The position numbers were made by a program, and so were the translations under genes. Below are positions 9,483 through 39,895 of a stretch of 64,000 nt of DNA, in pieces (the first letter of the stretch is position 1; every line of letters begins with the position of its first letter). The notes under the pieces are model-generated. The model searched no databases and had not been told where the DNA came from. It was given only the letters and a program-made list of their open reading frames with translations. This stretch comes from Acidaminococcus hominis (GTDB lineage: Bacteria > Bacillota > Negativicutes > Acidaminococcales > Acidaminococcaceae), in the NCBI RefSeq assembly GCF_900291475.1, contig NZ_OLMM01000004.1, forward strand, positions 261,613 to 325,612, written 5' to 3'.

Positions 9483-9488
9483 TAGCTC

Positions 9489-9573
9489 CATCACTAGGGG
9501 CGCATTCGCTGAGAGACCAAAACGGTCGACCCTTTGAACCTGATGCGGTTAGTACCGCCGAAGGAAAGTGGTA
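9489..9573 (+). ncRNA. TPP riboswitch (THI element)
   Basis: Conserved THI-box blocks occur in order: AGGGGCGC, GCTGAGA, ACCCTTTGAACCTGATGCGGTTAGTACCGCC (written here only to show its CCTGAT and GTTAGTACC cores), then GAAGGAAAGTGGT closing the P1 stem with ATCACT. It binds thiamine pyrophosphate. With the terminator that follows, it should shut off thiC when TPP is abundant. Confidence 0.95.
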
Positions 9574-9587
9574 GACTCCGTTTTTTC

Positions 9588-9621
9588 GGCCGCTTTCCGC
9601 AAAGGGAAGCGGCCCTTTTTT
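9588..9621 (+). terminator. Riboswitch-controlled terminator before thiC
   Basis: An 11-bp hairpin GGCCGCTTTCC / GGGAAGCGGCC followed by CTTTTTTAT lies between the TPP aptamer and the thiC ribosome binding site. This is the expected expression platform for transcriptional attenuation. Confidence 0.85.
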
Positions 9622-9639
9622 ATCCAAGGAGGAGTCGTC

Positions 9640-10938
9640 ATGAAGACGCAGAGACAAGCAGCATTACAGGGAATCATCACCGAACAGATGCAGGCCGTAG
9701 CCCAGCAGGAAGGGCTGGAGGCCAGCCTTATCCGGGACCGGGTAGCCAAGGGCACCATCGCCATTCCGGCCAATATCAACCACCGGGGCCTGGTGGCCCG
9801 GGGCGTGGGCGAAGGGCTGTCCACCAAGGTTAACGCAAATATCGGAACCTCTTCCGCCTACCCGGATCCGGCACCGGAACTGGACAAGCTGAAAGCCGCC
9901 ATCGACGCCGGCGCCGATGCGGTCATGGATTTGTCCACTGGGGACAACATTGACGCCTCCCGCCGGGCCATTCTGGAGCATTCCACGGTAATGGTGGGCA
10001 CTGTGCCCATTTACCAGGCCACGGTCCACGCCATTACCACCCACGGCCAGGTCATTAACATGACCAAGGACGATATCTTTGACGTGGTGGAAAAGCAGGC
10101 CAAGGACGGGGCGGACTTTATGACCATGCACTGCGGCATTACCCGCCAGGTGCTGGATACCCTGATTGCCGAAGGCCGGGTCATGGACATTGTCAGCCGG
10201 GGCGGCTCCTTTATTTCCGGGTGGATGCTCCACAACGGCAAGGAGAACCCCTTCTACGAATACTACGACGAAATCCTGGACATCTGCGCCCGCTACGATG
10301 TGACCATCAGCTTGGGCGACGGCCTGCGGCCGGGCTGCCTGGCGGACGCCACCGACCGGTCCCAGATTCAGGAACTGCTGAACCTGGGCGGCCTGACCCA
10401 GCGGGCCTGGGACAAGGGCGTCCAGGTCATGGTAGAAGGCCCGGGCCACGTTCCCTTTAACCAGATTGCCACCAATATGCAGCTGGAAAAGCGCCTGTGC
10501 CACGGAGCACCCTTCTACGTGCTTGGTCCACTGGTAACGGACATTGCCCCAGGCTACGACCATATTACCTCCGCCATTGGGGGCACCCTGGCCGCCGTCA
10601 GCGGTGCCGATTTCCTGTGCTACGTCACCCCGGCAGAACACCTGGGCCTGCCGGATATCAATGACGTCCGGGAAGGGGTCATTGCCGCCCGGATTGCCGG
10701 CCATGCCGCAGACGTAGCCAAGGGCCTGCCCTCTGCCGTAGCCCAGGACCTGGCCATGGCCAAGGCCCGGAAGGTGCTGGACTGGGACGAACAGATCCGT
10801 CTGGCCATTGACCCGGTGAAGGCCAAAGCCTTCCGGAAAGCCAAGAATAAGGATTCCGAAGAATACTGCTCCATGTGCGGAGAGTACTGCGCCGTAAAAA
10901 TCATCGGCCAATACCTGGACGAAGTGAAAAAGAAATAA
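9640..10938 (+). CDS. thiC: Phosphomethylpyrimidine synthase ThiC
   Basis: A 432-residue radical SAM enzyme that converts aminoimidazole ribotide to HMP-phosphate in thiamine synthesis. The C-terminal Cx2Cx4C cluster motif (CSMCGEYC) that binds the 4Fe-4S/SAM centre is intact. AANINHRG-type N-terminal motifs and EGPGHVP are present. An upstream in-frame ATG at 9568 falls inside the riboswitch and its terminator. ATG 9640 follows AAGGAGGAGT and was chosen. It is the only thiamine gene in the window. Confidence 0.97.
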   Translation: MKTQRQAALQGIITEQMQAVAQQEGLEASLIRDRVAKGTIAIPANINHRGLVARGVGEGLSTKVNANIGTSSAYPDPAPELDKLKAAIDAGADAVMDLSTGDNIDASRRAILEHSTVMVGTVPIYQATVHAITTHGQVINMTKDDIFDVVEKQAKDGADFMTMHCGITRQVLDTLIAEGRVMDIVSRGGSFISGWMLHNGKENPFYEYYDEILDICARYDVTISLGDGLRPGCLADATDRSQIQELLNLGGLTQRAWDKGVQVMVEGPGHVPFNQIATNMQLEKRLCHGAPFYVLGPLVTDIAPGYDHITSAIGGTLAAVSGADFLCYVTPAEHLGLPDINDVREGVIAARIAGHAADVAKGLPSAVAQDLAMAKARKVLDWDEQIRLAIDPVKAKAFRKAKNKDSEEYCSMCGEYCAVKIIGQYLDEVKKK

Positions 10939-14306: not shown

Positions 14307-14408
14307 CTTTTAGTAAAGTTGGTATAAAAAATGGAAGCATTATGTTAAATCAGCTCTTAGGTGGTGCAGTCAAGAAACTGCAAGGCAGCCCCTCCCTGCA
14401 CAAAACAA

Positions 14409-14431
14409 GCCCCCGGCAACATGCCAGGGGC
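14409..14431 (-). terminator. Probable terminator of the aro operon
   Basis: A GCCCC-GGCA-aca-TGCC-GGGGC hairpin about 40 bp past the aroQ stop, followed on the minus strand by a T-rich tract (CTTGTTTTG). Confidence 0.6.
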
Positions 14432-14468
14432 CATTTCATTTCCTTTTGTATGCGTTTTTCACTGGCGC

Positions 14469-14906
14469 TTAACGGGCGGCAATATAGTCCACCAGGTAGC
14501 GCAGGGCAAGGCCGTAGCCCTGGAAGCCCAGACCGCAGATAGTGCCTACACTGCCGGCGGCGGTTACCAGATGCTGCCGGTAGGTTTCCCGTTTATACAC
14601 ATTGGTCAGGTGAACCTCCACCGAAGGCAGTCCCACGCCCTTTAACGCATCCAGGATAGCTACGCTGTAGCAGGCGTAGGCGCTGGGGTTGATGACCAGT
14701 CCGTCGTACACATCCAGGGCTTCCTGGATCAGGGTCACCATTTCCCCTTCGCTGTTGGTCTGCTGCACATCCACGGTAATGCCCAGTTCATGGGCCGTGC
14801 TTTGGATGTACTGACACAGGGCCACGTAATCGTCATGGCCGTACATTTCCTTTTCCCGAATGCCCAACAGGTTGATATTGGGTCCGTTTAGCACCAATAT
14901 TTTCAT
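14469..14906 (-). CDS. aroQ: 3-dehydroquinate dehydratase, type II
   Basis: A 145-residue type II dehydroquinase; the third shikimate-pathway step converts 3-dehydroquinate to 3-dehydroshikimate. The N-terminal LNGPNINLLGIRE motif carrying the active-site loop, the NPSAYACYS segment with its conserved Asn, and the VEVHLTN motif with the catalytic His are all present. It is the last gene of the nine-gene aro operon and overlaps aroK by 4 bp. Confidence 0.97.
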   Translation of the reverse strand: MKILVLNGPNINLLGIREKEMYGHDDYVALCQYIQSTAHELGITVDVQQTNSEGEMVTLIQEALDVYDGLVINPSAYACYSVAILDALKGVGLPSVEVHLTNVYKRETYRQHLVTAAGSVGTICGLGFQGYGLALRYLVDYIAAR

Positions 14907-15403
14907 AATCCCAGCTCCTTGATCAGCCGCACAATCTGGGCGGCCGTTTGGTCAAAATCTTCATTTACAGGAATGGCGTAGTCACTGTATTTGAGATACA
15001 GGGGCATACGTTCCCGATACAGCTGCGTCAGCCGGTCCTCTGCGGAATTGAGCAGGGGCCGGGAAGTCTTGTCCACCGAACCGGCAATGGCTTCCAGATC
15101 CCGGTTCAGGAAAAAAATCTTGCCGTTTTGCTGCAAATACGCAATGTTTTCCGGCCGCTTGACCACTCCGCCGCCGCAGGAGATGATGATGCCGTCCATT
15201 TCTGACAGGGTCTTGATGGCCGCCGTTTCCGCCGCCCGGAATACGTCCTCCCCTTCCTGGAACAGGTCTTTCACGCTGCGGCCGGTTTCCTTGATCACCT
15301 GGTCGTCGGAATCCAGGACCGGGCGGTCCAGAAGTTTGTGCAGTTTCCGTCCAATGGTGGTTTTGCCGGCGCCCGGCATGCCAATCAGGACAATATTACT
15401 CAT
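14903..15403 (-). CDS. aroK: Shikimate kinase
   Basis: A 166-residue P-loop kinase that phosphorylates shikimate to shikimate 3-phosphate. The Walker A motif GMPGAGKTT is at residues 8-16. The shikimate-binding DSD motif (LDSDDQVIKE) and the GGG turn (ISCGGGVV) with downstream RPLL lid residues are intact. It overlaps aroE upstream and aroQ downstream by 4 bp each, indicating translational coupling. Confidence 0.96.
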   Translation of the reverse strand: MSNIVLIGMPGAGKTTIGRKLHKLLDRPVLDSDDQVIKETGRSVKDLFQEGEDVFRAAETAAIKTLSEMDGIIISCGGGVVKRPENIAYLQQNGKIFFLNRDLEAIAGSVDKTSRPLLNSAEDRLTQLYRERMPLYLKYSDYAIPVNEDFDQTAAQIVRLIKELGL

Positions 15404-16227
15404 TTAAAATTTTCCTCCAGCTGTTTTACGATTTGCGGCACCAATTCTGCCGGTAATTTTTTTTGCAGCCAAATTTCTTCCGCAGCCACGGCCTGGCCCA
15501 CCAGCATGTGGAGTCCGTTGCAGGTTTTGGCCCCTGCGGCGGCTGCATCGGCCAGAAATTGGGTCACGGCCGGATTGTAGATAATATCCACGGCGGCCCC
15601 GAACTTTCCTACAAAGGACGCGGGCACCGGGCTGACCCCGGTTTTGGGGTACATGCCAATAGGGGTGGTGTTGATGATCACGTCGCCCCCGGGCAGGTCT
15701 TCCAGTTCCGTGTACAGTTTCAGCTGGGTTTCCGGCTGGGCCTTCAGGAAACGGGACAGGCTGTTTTGGGCTTTTTCCCGGCTGCGGACTAAAATGGTGA
15801 TTTGGGCCGCTTTCCGGTCCGCCACCACCTGCAGCACGGCCTTGGCCGCACCGCCGTTGCCCAGTACCGTAACGTTTTTCCCGGCAAGGGGAATATCGTA
15901 GGCCTGAAGCATCTGGTCAAACCCGTGATAATCTGTATTATAGCCTTTTACTCCCCCATCTGTAAAGAAAAGGGTATTGGAGGCTCCAATCTTTTCCGCC
16001 TCCGGGCTGATTTCTGTAAGATACGGCAGCACCGTTTCCTTGTAGGGAATGGTCACATTGCAGCCGTTGTAGGCCGGAGTCTCTTGGGTAAGAAAAGGCC
16101 CCACCTGTTCCGGTTCCAGCTCCACCAGGTCATAGGTACCGGAAATTCCCAGTGCCTGGAAAATTTTTGTATGAATTTCCGGGCTGAGGCTGTGCCCCAA
16201 AACCCGTCCCAATAATCCCAATTTCAT
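15400..16227 (-). CDS. aroE: Shikimate dehydrogenase
   Basis: A 275-residue NADP-dependent enzyme reducing 3-dehydroshikimate to shikimate. The N-terminal substrate domain carries LGHSLSPEIH and NVTIPYKE (catalytic Lys). The Rossmann nucleotide motif VLGNGGAAKAV is near residue 128. A longer frame extends to 16371 inside pheA, but ATG 16227, just after the pheA stop, matches the family N-terminus (MKLGLLGRVLGHS). The ribosome binding site is AAGGAAG inside the pheA end. Confidence 0.95.
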   Translation of the reverse strand: MKLGLLGRVLGHSLSPEIHTKIFQALGISGTYDLVELEPEQVGPFLTQETPAYNGCNVTIPYKETVLPYLTEISPEAEKIGASNTLFFTDGGVKGYNTDYHGFDQMLQAYDIPLAGKNVTVLGNGGAAKAVLQVVADRKAAQITILVRSREKAQNSLSRFLKAQPETQLKLYTELEDLPGGDVIINTTPIGMYPKTGVSPVPASFVGKFGAAVDIIYNPAVTQFLADAAAAGAKTCNGLHMLVGQAVAAEEIWLQKKLPAELVPQIVKQLEENFK

Positions 16228-16229
16228 AG

Positions 16230-17075
16230 TCACGCTTCCTTTCCATGGTCCGCCGGGTAGTTCCCCAGAATCTTGCATTCCGTGGTATCCTCCGGCAGCT
16301 GCTGCAGGACTTCCTGGACCGCCGGATCCGTCAGATGGCCGGTAATGTCCATATGGAAATAGTATTCCCAAGGCCGGCCGGGATACGGCCGGGACTCGAT
16401 GTTGGTCATGTTGATATTCTGCTGGGCAAAATGGGCCAGCAGCCGGTACAGGGAACCGGGCTGGTGCTTCAAGCTGACAATCAGCGTAATCTTGTCCGCC
16501 TCAGGCACCAGTTCCTGCTCTCTGCTGATGATAATGAAGCGGGTATAATTGCTTTTGTTGGTATTGATCCCCCGGGCCAGGATTTCCAGCCCGTACTGGT
16601 CCGCCGCCTGAACGCCGGCCACGGCTGCCATGTGAGGGTCCTTCTTTTCCGCCACCAGTTCTGCGGCCTTAGCCGTATTGAAATAGTTGAACTGACGCAT
16701 GGCCGGGTGCTCCTTAAAAAACAGGCTGCACTGGGAGAAGCCCTGGGGATGGGAATAGACTTCCGTAATATTTTCCAGGCAGGTACCCGGATAGGCCAGC
16801 AGGCAGTGTTCAATCTTCAGGATTTTTTCTCCCACAATGAAAATGCTGTAGCGCCGGGCCAGGTCGTACACGTCGGTAATGCCGCCGGTGGAGGAGTTTT
16901 CAATGGGCAGCACGCCGTAGCGGACTTTGCCCTCTGCCACGGCCTGAACCACATCCTCAAACAGCATGAAATTTTCTGCCTGAACCTCCTGGCCCTGGAA
17001 ATACTGGAGCAGGGCCATATGACTGTAGGCACCAGGAACCCCCTGGTAGCCTACGGGAATTGCTTTTGTTGCCAT
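16230..17075 (-). CDS. pheA: Prephenate dehydratase
   Basis: A 281-residue monofunctional prephenate dehydratase without a chorismate mutase domain. It makes phenylpyruvate from prephenate for Phe synthesis. The catalytic region includes VLPIENSSTGGITDVYDL and NYTRFIII (TRF motif). The C-terminal ACT domain (VSLKHQPGSLYRLLAHFAQ) carries ESRP, the Phe-binding feedback-inhibition motif. No chorismate mutase gene was recognised in the operon, so that step must be encoded elsewhere. Confidence 0.95.
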   Translation of the reverse strand: MATKAIPVGYQGVPGAYSHMALLQYFQGQEVQAENFMLFEDVVQAVAEGKVRYGVLPIENSSTGGITDVYDLARRYSIFIVGEKILKIEHCLLAYPGTCLENITEVYSHPQGFSQCSLFFKEHPAMRQFNYFNTAKAAELVAEKKDPHMAAVAGVQAADQYGLEILARGINTNKSNYTRFIIISREQELVPEADKITLIVSLKHQPGSLYRLLAHFAQQNINMTNIESRPYPGRPWEYYFHMDITGHLTDPAVQEVLQQLPEDTTECKILGNYPADHGKEA

Positions 17076-17079
17076 AAAA

Positions 17080-18168
17080 TCAGCCCCTTTGGGATAGATA
17101 GTACAGGTCCAGCAGCGTCCAGGCGGTAACGGCTTCCACCACCGGCAGGGCCCGGGGAACGATGCAGGGATCGTGACGGCCGTGGACCTCCAGGGTGGTT
17201 TCTTCCTGGCGCACCACGTTCACAGTCTGCTGTGGCTTGCTGATGGAGGGGGTGGGTTTTACCACCACCTGGAAGAAAATGGGCATGCCGTTGGAAATGC
17301 CGCCCAATACGCCCCCGTTGTGGTTGGTCAGGCAGCGGACTTCCCCGCCTTCCAGCACCATGGGGTCGTTGGCCTCGCTGCCCCGCATACCTGCCAGGGC
17401 AAAGCCGTCCCCAAAGGCCACGCCTTTGATGGCGGGAATAGAGAACAGGGCATGGGACAGCCGGCTTTCCACGGAGTCAAAATAGGGTTCTCCCCAGCCC
17501 ACCGGTACGCCCACAGCCATACAGGCAATGGTGCCCCCTACGGAATCCTTGTCCGCCCGGGCAGCGGCAATGGCCTGTTCCATGGGTTCCCGCTTGCTTT
17601 CGTCCAGGAGAGCCAGGTAGTTGTCGCCCAGGTGCGTCAGGGTTTCCGGGGTTTCTCCCAGCGGGGAAAAGGGCCGGTCGGTGATTCCTGCCAGGCTGGC
17701 AATGTGGGCGCCAACCGTAACGCCGATTTGGGCCAGCAGCTGCTTCGCCACAGCGCCGGCAAACACCAGGGGAGCTGTCAGACGGCCGGAGAAACTGCCA
17801 CCGCCCCGGTAGTCGTTGCAGCCGTGAAATTTCACATAGCCGGGAAAGTCCCCGTGGCCCGGCCGCATGACTTCCTTCAGCAGGCTGTAATCCTTAGAAT
17901 GCTGGTTGCTGTTGGGAATCCGGGCGCACAGGGCCATGCCCGTGGTCCGACCTTCAAACAGGCCGCTTTCCACGCTGACGGCATCGCTTTCCTTCCGGTG
18001 GGTAGCCAGGGGATTCTGGCCGGGAGCCCGGCGCTTCATTTCCCGTTCAATCAGCTCCCAATCCAGCTTCAGGCCGGCGGGCAGGCCGTCAATGACCACG
18101 CCGATGGACGGTCCGTGGGATTCCCCGAAAATCGTCAGTTTAATCCGCTCACCCATTACACTGCTCAT
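17080..18168 (-). CDS. aroC: Chorismate synthase
   Basis: A 362-residue FMN-dependent enzyme converting EPSP to chorismate. It starts with the family signature GESHGPSIGVVIDGLPAG, has the internal RPGHGDFPGYVKF and FSGRLTAP segments, and a C-terminal GRHDPCIVPRALPVVEA motif. The start codon at 18168 lies within the 3' end of aroA, with an AGGAGGA ribosome binding site, so the two are coupled. Confidence 0.97.
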   Translation of the reverse strand: MSSVMGERIKLTIFGESHGPSIGVVIDGLPAGLKLDWELIEREMKRRAPGQNPLATHRKESDAVSVESGLFEGRTTGMALCARIPNSNQHSKDYSLLKEVMRPGHGDFPGYVKFHGCNDYRGGGSFSGRLTAPLVFAGAVAKQLLAQIGVTVGAHIASLAGITDRPFSPLGETPETLTHLGDNYLALLDESKREPMEQAIAAARADKDSVGGTIACMAVGVPVGWGEPYFDSVESRLSHALFSIPAIKGVAFGDGFALAGMRGSEANDPMVLEGGEVRCLTNHNGGVLGGISNGMPIFFQVVVKPTPSISKPQQTVNVVRQEETTLEVHGRHDPCIVPRALPVVEAVTAWTLLDLYYLSQRG

Positions 18169-19438
18169 ACTGTCCTCCTAAGTTTTGGAAATCCCGCCAA
18201 AAGTCGGGATACGATTTCTTTACGCATTCTGCTCCCACCAGGGTAACCGTCCCCTGGCATTGAATAGAGGCAATGGCCAGGCTCATGGCAATCCGGTGGT
18301 CGTTCCAGCAGTCCACCGTGCCGCCGGTCAGGGCTTCCACCCCGTCAATGGACAGGCCGTCAGGCCGCTGGGTAATCCGGGCGCCCAGTTTGGTGAGTTC
18401 CGTGGCCATGGCCTCCAGCCGGTCACATTCCTTGATCCGCAGCCGTTCAGCATGAATGATGTCCGTGTGGCCCTGACTCAGGGCTGCGGCCACAGAAAGA
18501 ATGGGCACAATGTCCGGGCAGTCCGCCGCATCAATGACGGTTCCCTGGCTGACGGAAGGCCGGCTGACCAGAACGCCGTTTTCAAAGGTTACCTGGCCCC
18601 CCATCCGCTGGAGAATGGAGATAATGGCCTTGTCCCCCTGAAGGGAGTCCGGGTCCATACCTGCAACGGAAATGGTTCTGCCCAGCATTCCAGCAGTGAG
18701 CCAGAAGGCTGCCTGGGAATAGTCCCCTTCCACCGCCCCTTCCTGAGGCTGGTAGTGCTGGCTGCCGGGAATTTCGTATTCCCGGTAGTCCTTGTGCCGG
18801 ACCACAATGCCGTACTTTTGCAGGGCGGACAGGGTCAGGGCAATGTAGCTCTGGGATTCCAGCTTGCCGGTAATGGTCAGCCGGGAGGGTCCAGGCAGCA
18901 GGGGCAGGGCAAATAGGAGGCCCGAAATGAACTGGCTGCTGACAGAGCCCGGCAGGGTGTACTCTCCGGGCTTTAGCGGCCCCTGAACGGTCAAGGGAAA
19001 ATTGCTCCCCTCCCCCTTCTCAAAGCGCAGCCCCTGTTTTTGGAAAATGTCCTCGTAAGGGGTTAACGGACGGTCCCCCAGTTTCCCGGAACCGATAAAA
19101 GTAAAGGGCTGGTCACACAGGGCGGCCAGGGGAATGAGAAAGCGCAGGGTGGAGCCGGATTCCCCGCAGTCCAACACCTTTCCCGCCTGCTGGGGACGGC
19201 CCCCGTCCACGGTAAAAGCCGTCCGGCCGTCCGCCTGCTGCCGCTGGCTAATGGCTGCGCCCAGCTGCCGCAGACAGTCACAGGTGGCCAGAATATCCCG
19301 GGACAGGCTGATTTCTTCCACCTGGCTGCGGCCGCCGGCCAGGGCAGCGCAAATCAGGGCCCGATGGCCCATGCTTTTGGAAGAAGGAATCCGGAGGGTA
19401 CCGGTAAGACTTTGGGGGGTAATCCGTAATGTTGTCAT
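18149..19438 (-). CDS. aroA: 5-enolpyruvylshikimate-3-phosphate synthase
   Basis: A 429-residue EPSP synthase that joins phosphoenolpyruvate to shikimate 3-phosphate. It shows the N-terminal S3P-binding motif IPSSKSMGHRAL, the SGSTLRFLIPLAAL active-site segment and LRIKECDRLEAMATEL near residue 340. The PEP-binding segment has GESGSTLRF rather than a class I LxxGNAGTAMRPL motif, which would fit a class II type; this is inferred by eye. It overlaps aroB by 4 bp and aroC by 20 bp. Confidence 0.96.
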   Translation of the reverse strand: MTTLRITPQSLTGTLRIPSSKSMGHRALICAALAGGRSQVEEISLSRDILATCDCLRQLGAAISQRQQADGRTAFTVDGGRPQQAGKVLDCGESGSTLRFLIPLAALCDQPFTFIGSGKLGDRPLTPYEDIFQKQGLRFEKGEGSNFPLTVQGPLKPGEYTLPGSVSSQFISGLLFALPLLPGPSRLTITGKLESQSYIALTLSALQKYGIVVRHKDYREYEIPGSQHYQPQEGAVEGDYSQAAFWLTAGMLGRTISVAGMDPDSLQGDKAIISILQRMGGQVTFENGVLVSRPSVSQGTVIDAADCPDIVPILSVAAALSQGHTDIIHAERLRIKECDRLEAMATELTKLGARITQRPDGLSIDGVEALTGGTVDCWNDHRIAMSLAIASIQCQGTVTLVGAECVKKSYPDFWRDFQNLGGQYEQCNG

Positions 19439-20505
19439 GCTTCACCTCTAAAATAATTGGCCAGTTGGCCCAGTTCCACTTTTTTGAGCAGTGAGGTGCC
19501 GATTTTGGGCACCAGCACCAAGGTAAGGGTATTGCCCCGTTTCTTTTTGTCCATGGTCACCCCGGTCAGGATGTCCTCCAGGGAAATGGAATCCCTGGTA
19601 GCAAGGGGCACCTTTTGCAGCAGGGTTTCCAGCCGCCGGGCCGTGCCCGGTTCTGTCAGTCCCAGCCGCTCGGAGTTTTGGGTAATCCGAACCATGCCCA
19701 GGGCCACCCCTTCTCCGTGGGTATATTTCTCGTAGTGGTACTTCCGTTCCACTGCATGGCCCATGGTATGGCCAAAATTGAGCACCATCCGGGCACCTTC
19801 GTCCCGTTCGTCCTGCTCCACCACCTGGATTTTCAGGCGGATGCAGGCGGAAATGATTTCCGTTACGTGGGAAAGAATTTCTGCGTCCCCCTGCCAGGTT
19901 TCCAGCTGGGCAAACAGGTTCGCATCCCCGATAGCGGCGCATTTGATGACCTCCGCCAGGCCGTCGTGAAGGAATCGGACGGGCAGGGTGCCCAAAAGCT
20001 CCGGGTCAATGAGCACGGCCTTGGGCTGGTAGAAGGCACCGGCCAAATTCTTGCCTTCCGGCAGGTCCACCGCCACCTTGCCCCCTACGGAGCTGTCAAT
20101 TTGGGACAGCAGGGTGGTGGGAATCTGGATAAAGGGAATGCCCCTAAGGAAACTGGCGGCTACAAAGCCCCCCAAATCTCCGGGCACGCCCCCGCCCAGG
20201 GTGATAACCAGGTCCTTCCGGTCCAGGCCAAAAGCGGCGCAGCCCCGGAGCAGCTGACCGTAGGTTTCCAGGTTCTTGTGGTCTTCTCCGGCGGGCATCA
20301 CCAGCCGGCGGACTGCAAAGCCCTGTTCCGTCAGCTCCTGTTCCAGCTGGGCCCCATACAGGGGATCCACGTGGGAATCGGTGATGATGGCTGCCTTGTC
20401 CGCCTGGGACAGCTGCCGAATCCGCCAGCCAAAATGGGCAAAGGAACCGGGTTCTATTTCGATATCGTAGCTGTCCTTACCCAGGCTAACGCTGATTCTT
20501 TCCAT
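19435..20505 (-). CDS. aroB: 3-dehydroquinate synthase
   Basis: A 356-residue NAD- and metal-dependent enzyme that cyclises DAHP to 3-dehydroquinate. The core motif GGGVPGDLGGFVAASFLRGI near residues 105-125 binds NAD. FVQIPTTLLSQIDSSVGGK follows the family pattern, and metal ligands lie in LAEVIK and NFGHTMGHAVE. The start overlaps the tyrA 3' end by 20 bp and aroA overlaps its end, so it is inside the coupled run. Confidence 0.97.
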   Translation of the reverse strand: MERISVSLGKDSYDIEIEPGSFAHFGWRIRQLSQADKAAIITDSHVDPLYGAQLEQELTEQGFAVRRLVMPAGEDHKNLETYGQLLRGCAAFGLDRKDLVITLGGGVPGDLGGFVAASFLRGIPFIQIPTTLLSQIDSSVGGKVAVDLPEGKNLAGAFYQPKAVLIDPELLGTLPVRFLHDGLAEVIKCAAIGDANLFAQLETWQGDAEILSHVTEIISACIRLKIQVVEQDERDEGARMVLNFGHTMGHAVERKYHYEKYTHGEGVALGMVRITQNSERLGLTEPGTARRLETLLQKVPLATRDSISLEDILTGVTMDKKKRGNTLTLVLVPKIGTSLLKKVELGQLANYFRGEA

Positions 20506-21358
20506 AGAACATATCCCTTCTTCTTTTCTTGGCCCGGTTCATCATCAGTTCCAGTTCGTCTTTATCGCCGACCTGAAGGGCCGTCTTCCAATGTTCCAGC
20601 TGCTCCTCCAGCCGGTTGATTTCCACTACCACCTTGTCCCGGTTCAGCAGGAATAGGTCGCTCCACAGGCTGGCGTTGATATCTGCCACCCGGGTAGCAT
20701 CCCGGAAGGAACCGGCCACAAACTGCTTGGTATCTTCCTGCATGGAATCGCTGTTCACCAGGGAAACCGCCATAATATGGGGCAGGTCGCTGGTGTAGGC
20801 AATGATGCTGTCGTGTTCCGGGCCGGTGAGCTCCACCACCCGGCCGCAGCCCAGCTCATAGGCCATGTCCGTCAGCCATTTGACGTACTCGGGCCGGTTG
20901 TTGTCCCGTTTGATGATGATGAAGTTGGACCCCGGGAAAATCAGGGAGGTGCTTTGGCTGTAGCCCTTCCCTTCCCGGCCTGCCATGGGGTGGGTGGGCA
21001 CAAAGTCCATGTTCGGTCCCAGCAGTGCGTCTACCTGGTCGGGGAGGTCCCCCTTGATACCCATCACATCGGTGAGCAGCACGTCCGGTTTAAAGTCCTT
21101 TACATGCTCTTTGACAAAGGGAACGAAGGCCCCTGGGTACATGGCGCAGACAATCACGTCCGCTTCCTTGAGCCGTTCCGGGCATTCGTCGATATTATCC
21201 GTAATATAGCCTTCGTCCTTGGCCATCAGGGTCACAATGGGATTGGTATCCAGCCCTAAGATTTTCTGGACCTTTTGGCCCCGCAGGGCTTTGGCGTAAG
21301 AGCCGCCAATCAGCCCCAGGCCCACAATGGCAAATACGGTTTCCTGTAGATTTTTCAT
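20486..21358 (-). CDS. tyrA: Prephenate dehydrogenase
   Basis: A 290-residue TyrA-type dehydrogenase catalysing oxidative decarboxylation of prephenate to 4-hydroxyphenylpyruvate for Tyr synthesis. The N-terminal Rossmann motif GLGLIGGSYAKAL, the catalytic THPMAGRE segment and the helical dimerisation domain are visible. No ACT domain is attached, so feedback by Tyr may act elsewhere or at the operon leader. It is second in the operon, separated from aroF by about 210 bp. Confidence 0.93.
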   Translation of the reverse strand: MKNLQETVFAIVGLGLIGGSYAKALRGQKVQKILGLDTNPIVTLMAKDEGYITDNIDECPERLKEADVIVCAMYPGAFVPFVKEHVKDFKPDVLLTDVMGIKGDLPDQVDALLGPNMDFVPTHPMAGREGKGYSQSTSLIFPGSNFIIIKRDNNRPEYVKWLTDMAYELGCGRVVELTGPEHDSIIAYTSDLPHIMAVSLVNSDSMQEDTKQFVAGSFRDATRVADINASLWSDLFLLNRDKVVVEINRLEEQLEHWKTALQVGDKDELELMMNRAKKRRRDMFYGKNQR

Positions 21359-21570
21359 GAAATTCCTCTCCTATAGACCCGCCTAGGCGGGGCATCAAAT
21401 TTGCGTCAGCCAGGCCCCAGGCTCCAGCCGCCAAATTTGCAGCGGGGTTGCCCTTTGGGCCTCACTCTACCATGGTAGCGGGCTGGAACCAATTGTGCAA
21501 GATGGTTTTAGAAATTTTTCTTATTTTGTACCCTTTTGCGGCTCCAGCCTGGGTTCTCAAGGAATTTTGT
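21359..21570 (-). other. 212-bp gap between aroF and tyrA with local hairpins
   Basis: This is the only sizeable gap in the aro operon. On the minus strand it contains two related segments (GGCTGGAGCC repeated; GCAAATTTG repeated) and a small hairpin CCCGCC-TA-GGCGGG near 21380, just before the tyrA ribosome binding site. There is no clear terminator T tract. It could hold an internal promoter or a processing site. Confidence 0.4.
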
Positions 21571-22584
21571 CTACAGTTCCCGGCCCAGCACCGGGGCCAG
21601 TACCCTTAGGTCGTCCATCAGCTGGGCAAAGATGTCCGGGGTCAGGCTTTGGGCCCCATCGCACCAGGCGTGTTTGGGATCGTTATGGACTTCAATAATC
21701 AGACCGTCGGCACCGGCAGCAATGGCCGCTTTGGCCAGCTGGGGCACCATCCAGGCTTTCCCGGCCGCATGGCTGGGGTCTACAATCACCGGCAGATGGC
21801 TGAGTTTTTTCACCGCCAGCACGGCACTGAGATCCAGGGTATTCCGGGTGTAGGTTTCAAAGGTCCGGATGCCCCGTTCACACAAAATCACGTTCTCGTT
21901 GCCTTCGGACATAATGTATTCGGCGGACATGAGCCATTCCTCAATGGTGGCGGCCAGGCCCCGCTTCAAAAGAATGGGCTTATTGAGCTTGCCCAGCTCC
22001 TTTAACAGGGTGAAATTCTGCATATTCCGGGCACCTACCTGAATCAGGTCCACCTGGTCCACGAATTCCGGAATCTTGTCGGCGGACATGATTTCCGTCA
22101 CAATGGGCAGGTGCTGGCTGTCCCCAGCGGCCCGGATCAGTTCCAGGCCCTTTTCCGCCAGGCCCTGGAAGGAGTACGGAGAAGTACGGGGCTTAAAAGC
22201 ACCGCCCCGAAGCATCACCGCCCCGCTTTTTTTCACGGAAGCTGCAATGGTTTCCATCTGTTCCTTGCCTTCTACAGAGCAGGGACCGGCAATCACCGCC
22301 AGCTTTTTGCCGCCCACCGGAACCCCGGACACATCAATGACAGAATCCTCCGGATGGAACAGCCGGTTGGCACGTTTGAAGGGCTCCTGCACCCGCATAG
22401 CCTTTTCCACCCAAGGGTGCACCAGGAACTGCTCTGGATCCAGCACGCTGGTATCCCCTACAATGCCCATAACCTCCTGGCTGACCCCTATACTTTCGTG
22501 GATGGTGAAGCCCTGTTGCTCCAAACTTTCCTTCAATTCTTCAATGGCTTCCCGGGGTACTCCTGCTTTCATAACAATAATCAT
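21571..22584 (-). CDS. aroF: 3-deoxy-7-phosphoheptulonate (DAHP) synthase, type I-beta
   Basis: A 337-residue first enzyme of the shikimate pathway, condensing PEP and erythrose 4-phosphate. The first roughly 70 residues form the ferredoxin-like regulatory domain of type I-beta enzymes (MIIVMKAGVPREAIEELKES). The catalytic barrel follows with AGPCSVEG, RGGAFKPRTSPYSFQG, QVGARNMQNF, LLKRG and DPSHAAGK. It is the first structural gene of the operon and directly follows the leader peptide and attenuator region. The ATG is preceded by AAAGGAGGATTCATT. Confidence 0.96.
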   Translation of the reverse strand: MIIVMKAGVPREAIEELKESLEQQGFTIHESIGVSQEVMGIVGDTSVLDPEQFLVHPWVEKAMRVQEPFKRANRLFHPEDSVIDVSGVPVGGKKLAVIAGPCSVEGKEQMETIAASVKKSGAVMLRGGAFKPRTSPYSFQGLAEKGLELIRAAGDSQHLPIVTEIMSADKIPEFVDQVDLIQVGARNMQNFTLLKELGKLNKPILLKRGLAATIEEWLMSAEYIMSEGNENVILCERGIRTFETYTRNTLDLSAVLAVKKLSHLPVIVDPSHAAGKAWMVPQLAKAAIAAGADGLIIEVHNDPKHAWCDGAQSLTPDIFAQLMDDLRVLAPVLGREL

Positions 22585-22587
22585 AAT

Positions 22588-22856
22588 GAATCCTCCTTTG
22601 CTGCTTTCCTACACGGTTTGGGGTGGGCCGCTGCCCAGCCCCCTTTGCTGCCTTGCAAGCGGGCCCCTCTGCCCTGCCTGCGCTGCTTTTTGCGTCTTCT
22701 GTACTGCTTTCCTACACTACTTTCCTACATTTCCTACGTTACTTTTCTGCACTGCCTTACTGCCGTCCCGCAAAACCTTCCTGCTGTACTTCGTATAATT
22801 CTCCTGCTTTCCTGCCCTCCTGCCCTTTTCGTTATTTTGCGCGCTTTCCATAGCAA
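22588..22856 (-). other. Purine-rich leader segment between attenuator and aroF
   Basis: Read on the minus strand, this stretch is strongly purine-biased and low in complexity. It has many GCAGGA and TGTAGGAAA-like units; GTGTAGGAAAGCAG occurs twice (complement at 22602-22616 and 22704-22718). No ORF with a ribosome binding site was found. It would form the distal part of the aro operon leader RNA if transcription passes the attenuator. Confidence 0.45.
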
Positions 22857-22887
22857 CAAAAAAAGCAGACTCGCAAGGAGTCTGCTT
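22857..22887 (-). terminator. Attenuator terminator of the aro operon leader
   Basis: A perfect 9-bp hairpin AGCAGACTC / GAGTCTGCT with a 5-nt loop is followed on the minus strand by seven T residues. It lies 25 bp after the leader-peptide stop and 270 bp before aroF, the position expected of an attenuator. Confidence 0.85.
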
Positions 22888-22912
22888 CTACGGTCCGTCC
22901 TGACCCGGCGGC

Positions 22913-23053
22913 TTATTCAGCCAACCGCTGCGCTCGCTTTACGAAGGTTCCTGCATGCAATTTTGGGCAGCCAAAGTAACCAAAGCTAAAATAATAGCTC
23001 TGGCCGTAGGTAAACCCATATGCATGTTGAGAAAGCATTCGGGAGCTGATCAT
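22913..23053 (-). CDS. Putative aromatic-rich leader peptide of the aro operon (46 aa)
   Basis: A small ORF of 46 codons starts with ATG at 23053 and stops at 22913. Its middle reads YGFTYGQSYYFSFGYFG, with five Tyr and five Phe among sixteen residues (YGFTYGQSYYFSFGYF). It begins about 30 bp after a near-consensus promoter, behind an AAAGGCGG ribosome binding site, and is followed by an intrinsic terminator before aroF. The arrangement matches attenuator leader peptides such as PheL, in which ribosome stalling at scarce aminoacyl-tRNA prevents termination. Unlike PheL, about 18 codons follow the aromatic run. Competing RNA structures were not worked out. Confidence 0.75.
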   Translation of the reverse strand: MISSRMLSQHAYGFTYGQSYYFSFGYFGCPKLHAGTFVKRAQRLAE

Positions 23054-23085
23054 GGTGACACCGCCTTTTGTTATGGAATGGTTCA

Positions 23086-23114
23086 ATTTTACCGCCAGTT
23101 ACACAATTCGTCAA
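23086..23114 (-). promoter_or_regulatory. Promoter of the aro operon
   Basis: On the minus strand, TTGACG (23109-23114) and TAAAAT (23086-23091) are separated by 17 bp. The predicted start of transcription, near 23079, is about 25 nt before the leader ATG. Confidence 0.8.
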
Positions 23115-23168: not shown

Positions 23169-23777
23169 TTAGCGCTGGAGTGCCGCATCCATATCGGCCA
23201 GACCATGACCCGTAGCGTCCACAAAGCGGATTCGCAGATTGCCGAACTGGGGCAGCTTCTTCAGAGGAATGGCTACTACACTGTCCTGGGTAATGGCTTC
23301 CCCGGCAGTTTGGGCACCGGTAGGATCGTTCACTGCTACGGTTACATTGATAAGCCGGCCAAACCGTTCCACCTTGGAAATGGTCAGCTGGCCGTTCTGG
23401 CCCTGGGTGGCCATGGAAGCGTACAGCACCAGGGAATGTTCGTAGCCCTTGCCGCTGTATTTTTGCTGGGCAGCCTTGATCTGTTCTTCAGCGCTGGAGA
23501 TTTTTTTCACCCCCGGCAGTTCGTCGGAATTGATCTGGCTGATTACGTCCGTATCAAAAGCCGTGGCTACAAAGCCGGGAATGGCTTTTTCGCTGTCATG
23601 GTCCCATTTGGAAACATCCACCGTGGTTTGGTACAGTACTTTTCCCGTGGCATTCATTTCTTCGGAAACAAACAGTTCCCCGTCCGCCAATTTATTGTGT
23701 TCTGCCGCATAGGCAGGACCAGCGCAGACTGCCAGCACCAGGGCGATGGCAGCCGCCCGTTTCCATCCATATTGCAT
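23169..23777 (-). CDS. Secreted protein of unknown function
   Basis: A 202-residue protein with a clear Sec signal peptide (KR then a hydrophobic core, cleavage after PAYA near residue 24). The mature part is mixed charged/hydrophobic with no membrane segment and no Cys, and no domain is recognised. It contains VLYASMATQGQNGQLTISKVERFGRLINVTVAVNDP, a segment reminiscent of beta-sheet proteins that carry protease-inhibitor-like strands, but no family can be named. It is divergent from mrp and upstream of the aro promoter on the same strand, though probably independent. Confidence 0.7.
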   Translation of the reverse strand: MQYGWKRAAAIALVLAVCAGPAYAAEHNKLADGELFVSEEMNATGKVLYQTTVDVSKWDHDSEKAIPGFVATAFDTDVISQINSDELPGVKKISSAEEQIKAAQQKYSGKGYEHSLVLYASMATQGQNGQLTISKVERFGRLINVTVAVNDPTGAQTAGEAITQDSVVAIPLKKLPQFGNLRIRFVDATGHGLADMDAALQR

Positions 23778-39661: not shown

Positions 39662-39895
39662 AAAAAAAATAACCCGTCCCTGTTATAGGACGAGTTGACT
39701 TCGCGGTACCACCTACATTCTCAATTGCTTGAGCACCTTGGAGGCTTAACGCGCCTTGACGGGCAGGGCTGCTGCACCCTGCCGGCTCCCGGACGACTTC
39801 CAGCGGCTGACGTGGATGCTTGCACCGACCGCACCCTCTCTGCAACGCAGCTTGGCTGTACTCCTTCCGTTCATAGCCATTGGTCATATGATATT
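39662..39895 (-). ncRNA. T-box riboswitch upstream of valS
   Basis: On the minus strand the leader ends with the hallmark T-box sequence AGGTGGTACCGCGAAG. A terminator hairpin AACTCGTCC / GGACGGGTT plus eight T residues follows (39661-39696). The 5' part forms a stem-loop-rich Stem I. A GTC codon in GGAAGTCGTCC is a candidate Val specifier, but the pairing was judged by eye. Uncharged tRNA-Val should stabilise the antiterminator and raise valS expression. Confidence 0.9.

Follow-up and report, generated by a model that had tools for sequence, protein, structure and literature searches.

The window, i.e., the whole 64,000-nucleotide stretch of DNA that was analysed, carries on its minus strand an operon of nine genes, and identification by Pfam and NCBIfam bears out the initial annotation, in which all seven shikimate steps plus tyrA and pheA had been assigned to it. 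The nine-gene order is identical in 15 sampled genomes of the family Acidaminococcaceae (several genera) and in one genome of another family (G062); in this gene-order comparison, aroQ was not found within the stretches taken from five genus relatives. A chorismate mutase domain is also encoded elsewhere in the genome. The presence of a promoter, an aromatic leader ORF and a terminator before the operon is confirmed, and the features are as follows:

23156-23127 (-): alternative promoter, TTAACA-N18-TAAAAT
23086..23114 (-): promoter, TTGACG (23114-23109), 17-nt spacer, TAAAAT (23091-23086), identified by sequence
23061..23069 (-): ribosome-binding site AAAAGGCGG, likewise identified
22913..23053 (-): leader ORF, 46 codons plus stop (ATG 23053-23051, TAA 22915-22913), conserved in 49 distinct family loci
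22973..23020 (-): Tyr/Phe control codons YGFTYGQSYYFSFGYF, 5 Tyr and 4 Phe in 16 codons, from the family codon alignment
22857..22889 (-): intrinsic terminator, AGAAGCAGACTC-CTTGC-GAGTCTGCTTTT at 22889-22861, then a run of seven T
14469..22584 (-): operon aroF-tyrA-aroB-aroA-aroC-pheA-aroE-aroK-aroQ
14408..14432 (-): terminator-like hairpin after aroQ

The 46 codons of the leader translate to MISSRMLSQHAYGFTYGQSYYFSFGYFGCPKLHAGTFVKRAQRLAE. Both the TTGACG-N17-TAAAAT promoter and the 46-codon ORF with a Tyr/Phe-dense core that had been claimed initially were located on the minus strand, where the core has nine Tyr/Phe codons among 16, and the terminator was correctly described as carrying seven T, although its stem has 10–12 pairs instead of the 9 bp given. 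The control codons match the products of the operon, in that nine Tyr/Phe codons precede a gene set that includes tyrA and pheA. When the 586-nt intergenic region was subjected to dinucleotide shuffling, an ORF with at least eight aromatics per 14 residues arose in 1 of 5,000 shuffles, and a comparably aromatic-dense ORF was present on the reverse strand of none of the 49 orthologous regions. Folding of the 224-nt leader gave z = -4.5 relative to shuffles, and a search of the leader DNA against plasmids gave no match.

The stretch between the terminator and aroF (window 22600-22860, minus strand) is approx. 275 nt long and purine-rich, with many GUAGGAAAGCAG-like units, and in many relatives it measures 25–90 nt. 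Upstream of the leader, on the same strand, there is a 202-aa ORF (window 23169-23777, minus strand) with no Pfam or NCBIfam match and with no obvious terminator between it and the leader promoter.

Conservation of the leader

Orthologous loci were fetched via AroF from 59 Acidaminococcaceae genomes, and an aromatic leader was found before aroF in 49 distinct loci with sufficient upstream sequence, five other family loci being left out because the upstream sequence was too short or the gene incomplete. In the codon alignment of the 49 loci, eight columns are 82–100% aromatic; Tyr and Phe replace each other at most of these columns, Tyr codons alternate between TAT and TAC, and across the family the Tyr positions are kept as well as the Phe positions. 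The start, the reading frame and the ribosome-binding site of the leader ORF are also conserved (relatives have AAAGGCGG or CAGGTG at the equivalent site). A terminator is present in 49/49 family loci, and all 47 of these loci that were tested for a promoter have one of TTGACN type, 28–73 nt ahead of the leader start, with a mean score of 9.7 of 12, compared with 7.8 in shuffles.

The initial annotation had staked its reading on two points, namely, that the ORF and its aromatic codons would be conserved in relatives, and that transcription would not start past the terminator. The former holds, with silent changes as well as Tyr/Phe exchange, and regarding the latter, no consensus promoter was found between the terminator and aroF, either in the window or in the 29 loci tested.

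Altogether, about 85 related leaders from gut Firmicutes were compared, those outside the family belonging to other Negativicutes and to Clostridia. From named genome records, similar leaders stand before aroF in Megasphaera, Dialister, Pelosinus, Clostridium, C. difficile, Epulopiscium, Monoglobus, Alkalibacter and others.

In many genera a single leader precedes a tandem aroF pair (L011, L013, L015-L018, L021-L023, L030, L036, L040 and others), and a second leader between the tandem copies was looked for, with none found in the family. At locus L166 of G062, which belongs to another family of the same order, two of the tandem aroF copies each have their own aromatic leader.

Antiterminator strands and core hairpin

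The codons past the aromatic run had been suspected of hiding another structure, and rightly so, since they encode the antiterminator strand, which lies behind the stop codon in other genera. The RNA elements of the leader in the window are the following:

23030..23052 (-): candidate segment 1, formed by codons early in the leader; predicted duplex with segment 2 of -18.3 kcal/mol in the window, exact register uncertain
22978..23005 (-): hairpin P1 in the aromatic codons, GGCCAGAGCUA-UUAUUU-UAGCUUUGGUU (arms also given as CCAGAGCUA-loop-UAGCUUUGG), from folding
22933..22944 (-): segment 2, antiterminator 5' strand UCGUAAAGCGAG, coded within FVKRA, from motif conservation and terminator complementarity
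22871..22882 (-): segment 3, upper 5' arm and loop of the terminator, GACTCCTTGCGA

Segment 2 is recognised by the motif UCGUAAA(C/G)AG near the end of the leader, and UCGUAAA or UCGUGAA is retained in nearly all family loci. In Acidaminococcus and several other genera the motif is coded (as VKR or VNR), and in L039, L041 and L043 it follows directly past the stop codon; because it is conserved both inside the ORF and untranslated after the stop, it is kept as RNA. Segment 2 finds its complement in the terminator, whose upper 5' arm and loop read UUUUACGA or CUUGCGA. Outside the family, CUAAUGAG matches CUCAUUAG in L068 and L070, ACAUGAG matches CUCAUGU in L075, UGAUGAGUC matches GACUCAUCA in L073, CUUUGAGCCUG matches CAGGUUCAAAG in L116, and AAAGCCCG matches CGGGCUUU in L121. 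Sequences of segment 2 and of the terminator arm differ between genera yet stay complementary, changing together.

For 37 outside loci, pairing with the 5' arm and loop of the locus's own terminator averaged -12.5 kcal/mol, compared with -9.4 kcal/mol for permuted terminators (sd 0.40), and 0 of 20,000 permutations were as good; in this comparison the whole region before the terminator was searched anew for each terminator, so that it is not circular. In reduced sets, the pairing of segment 2 with its own terminator was matched by 0/20,000 permutations within the family and 0/20,000 outside it, a test that is partly circular for segment 2, because segment 2 had been located via its terminator pairing. 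Three control regions (the second half of the core, the core-to-segment 2 stretch and the segment 2-to-terminator stretch) gave no pairing signal in the same reduced-set test. The permutations included related sequences, which works against a signal within clades, and relatedness is not wholly removed. Shuffles of segment 2 at individual loci were mostly non-significant (mean z about -1), and therefore the evidence for the antiterminator rests on position, conservation and the own-versus-permuted tests. The window's own antiterminator is among the weaker ones, its best duplex being no better than shuffles. Since the MAFFT alignment puts segment 3 out of register, column-wise covariation counts were dropped for the antiterminator.

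Segment 2 also prefers its own early leader and first aromatic codons to those from elsewhere (0 to 27 of 20,000 permutations; 0 of 20,000 class-wide), with the place varying by genus. A classical 1:2 helix of 13–15 bp is formed in L023, L040 and L045 between the aromatic codons CGGCUUUUAUUAUGC and CGUAAUAGAAGCCG, while the partner predicted for segment 2 in the window is the early codons (23030..23052). A default-off device, in which the leader ribosome-binding site would pair with the segment 2 region, was also considered; it is not claimed, because the permutation signal was absent in the family (3,600/20,000) and weak outside it (443/20,000).

Regarding the hairpin P1, the core of the window is stabler than 300 out of 300 synonymous recodings (z -3.0), the family mean in this recoding test is z -2.0, and the value is negative in 33 of the 37 outside leaders. 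The arms of P1 match within rows better than when permuted (3/5,000 reach the observed count), with complementary changes between genera. Codon choice favours the core hairpin, which probably acts by pausing RNA polymerase or delaying the ribosome.

Proposed attenuation and alternative explanations

We consider it very likely that the leader is a ribosome-mediated transcription attenuator responding to the supply of Tyr and Phe. The translation-dependent attenuation proposed in the initial annotation gains comparative support from the conserved ORF and codons, the promoter, the terminator, the complementarity of segments 2 and 3 and the hairpin, all of which are established by comparison of the loci. 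The ribosome would begin the leader ORF behind RNA polymerase, and when charged tRNA-Tyr or tRNA-Phe is scarce, it would stall on the aromatic codons, at a median distance of 41 nt upstream of segment 2, which would then be free to capture the upper 5' arm and the loop of the emerging terminator, so that the terminator would be blocked and the operon transcribed. When both charged tRNAs are plentiful, the ribosome would reach the stop codon at or beside segment 2 and mask it, and the terminator would form, while without translation the pairing of the early leader with segment 2 would favour termination. We infer stalling, read-through and a response to both amino acids from this arrangement, and the codons make it plausible that Tyr and Phe are sensed jointly.

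The geometry is consistent with such a scheme: segment 2 starts 41 nt past the last aromatic codon of the core and 13.5 nt before the stop codon (medians), so a ribosome on the aromatic codons would leave segment 2 free and a ribosome at the stop would cover it. When leaders were folded with a ribosome positioned at every codon in turn, which gives equilibrium estimates on the partial transcript and not kinetics, most of those tested were predicted to have an antiterminator that is strong up to and beyond the aromatic core but weak close to the stop, with examples in L071, L073, L074, L116 and L121. The predicted profile changes by a few kcal/mol in the window, and by nearly nothing in L039 and L041.

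Such an attenuator could in practice answer to one amino acid, most likely Phe, and we regard this as possible but rather doubtful. It is the case reported for AroR, whose leader contains Phe-Tyr-Phe yet responds to Phe and not to Tyr (PMC11802643); however, the core in the window has 5 Tyr and 4 Phe codons, and the family keeps its Tyr positions as faithfully as those for Phe.

It seems very improbable that the leader peptide itself is the sensor, with free Tyr or Phe and the nascent chain causing arrest in the ribosome tunnel in a TnaC-like manner. Some non-aromatic residues around the core are conserved (S, G, C/W), but the core hairpin accounts for the constancy of the Ser/Gly codons, and segment 2, retained even where it is untranslated, accounts for the VKR/VNR tail; in addition, Tyr and Phe freely replace each other at the conserved positions, and the carboxy terminus is variable or missing. 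Also very improbable is a riboswitch or T-box type element that senses an aromatic ligand or tRNA directly, the ORF being incidental: the leader is highly structured and there are 14 T-box matches in the genome (10 of them exceeding the cut-off), but the leader (22857-23114) has no T-box match and no Rfam match of any kind although T-boxes were detected elsewhere, its ORF, ribosome-binding site and reading frame are conserved, and the T-boxes are located at other genes, e.g., ahead of trpE and valS.

Known leaders and other RNA regulators

In the Firmicutes phylum, T-boxes are the regulators to which amino acid control is mostly attributed, and among leader-peptide attenuators PheL and TrpL are well established. 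PheL and PheM of E. coli (ahead of pheA and pheST) resemble the attenuator proposed here in having a leader peptide, control codons and alternative antiterminator and terminator structures, but they are Proteobacterial, sense Phe only and cover one enzyme or one synthetase (see also PMC11802643). The initial statement that classical examples are confined to a single enzyme or terminal branch holds for PheL; it does not extend to AroR of Corynebacterium glutamicum, which already stands before an aroF operon (Neshat et al. 2014, as described in PMC11802643; first detected in PMC4046766). In the description given there (PMC11802643), AroR is alike in that a Phe-Tyr-Phe leader precedes a DAHP synthase operon and stalling raises transcription, and it differs in belonging to Actinobacteria, in its short control run and in its response to Phe but not Tyr.

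The uORFC-13-1 motif, found before aroF in Acholeplasma and environmental sequences and proposed to act by attenuation, shares a uORF with a promoter and a Phe-coding U run just ahead of a terminator (PMC8632094). It differs in comprising 24 sequences with at least one Phe residue noted and no Negativicutes or Clostridia members described (PMC8632094); the motif may overlap with the present leader class. Histidine leader attenuators have been predicted in some Firmicutes, which makes them alike as leader-peptide attenuation in this phylum, but they concern histidine and narrow lineages (PMC9413887). A review of C. difficile riboswitches makes no mention of leader peptides (PMC11477304), and in a literature search made mainly among open-access papers we found no description of the present leader in Negativicutes or Clostridia. 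The mechanism is of a known kind, and what is new is the whole-operon scope, the phylogenetic breadth and the absence from Rfam.

This leader class, which Rfam lacks and which could become an Rfam family, offers a regulator of the entire chorismate pathway that can be put to the test in anaerobes common in the gut (Acidaminococcus, Phascolarctobacterium, Megasphaera, Dialister, Clostridium and C. difficile). We would give an even chance to the broader proposal that an ancient class of Tyr/Phe leader attenuators, spread across the Firmicutes, controls the entry to the shikimate pathway beside the Trp T-boxes, with the control-codon hairpin as a dedicated pausing or sensing element.

In the genome studied here, trpE (C7:384754) is preceded by a T-box (G000:C7:384332-384573, L149) whose score is slightly under the Rfam gathering cut-off, and since the common pathway has a leader peptide, two differently designed sensors of tRNA charging would operate in one pathway. 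Within the window, a further T-box lies immediately upstream of valS and folC (39683-39883, minus strand), and a TPP riboswitch (9486-9583, plus strand) is found ahead of a thiC-like gene (9568-10938).
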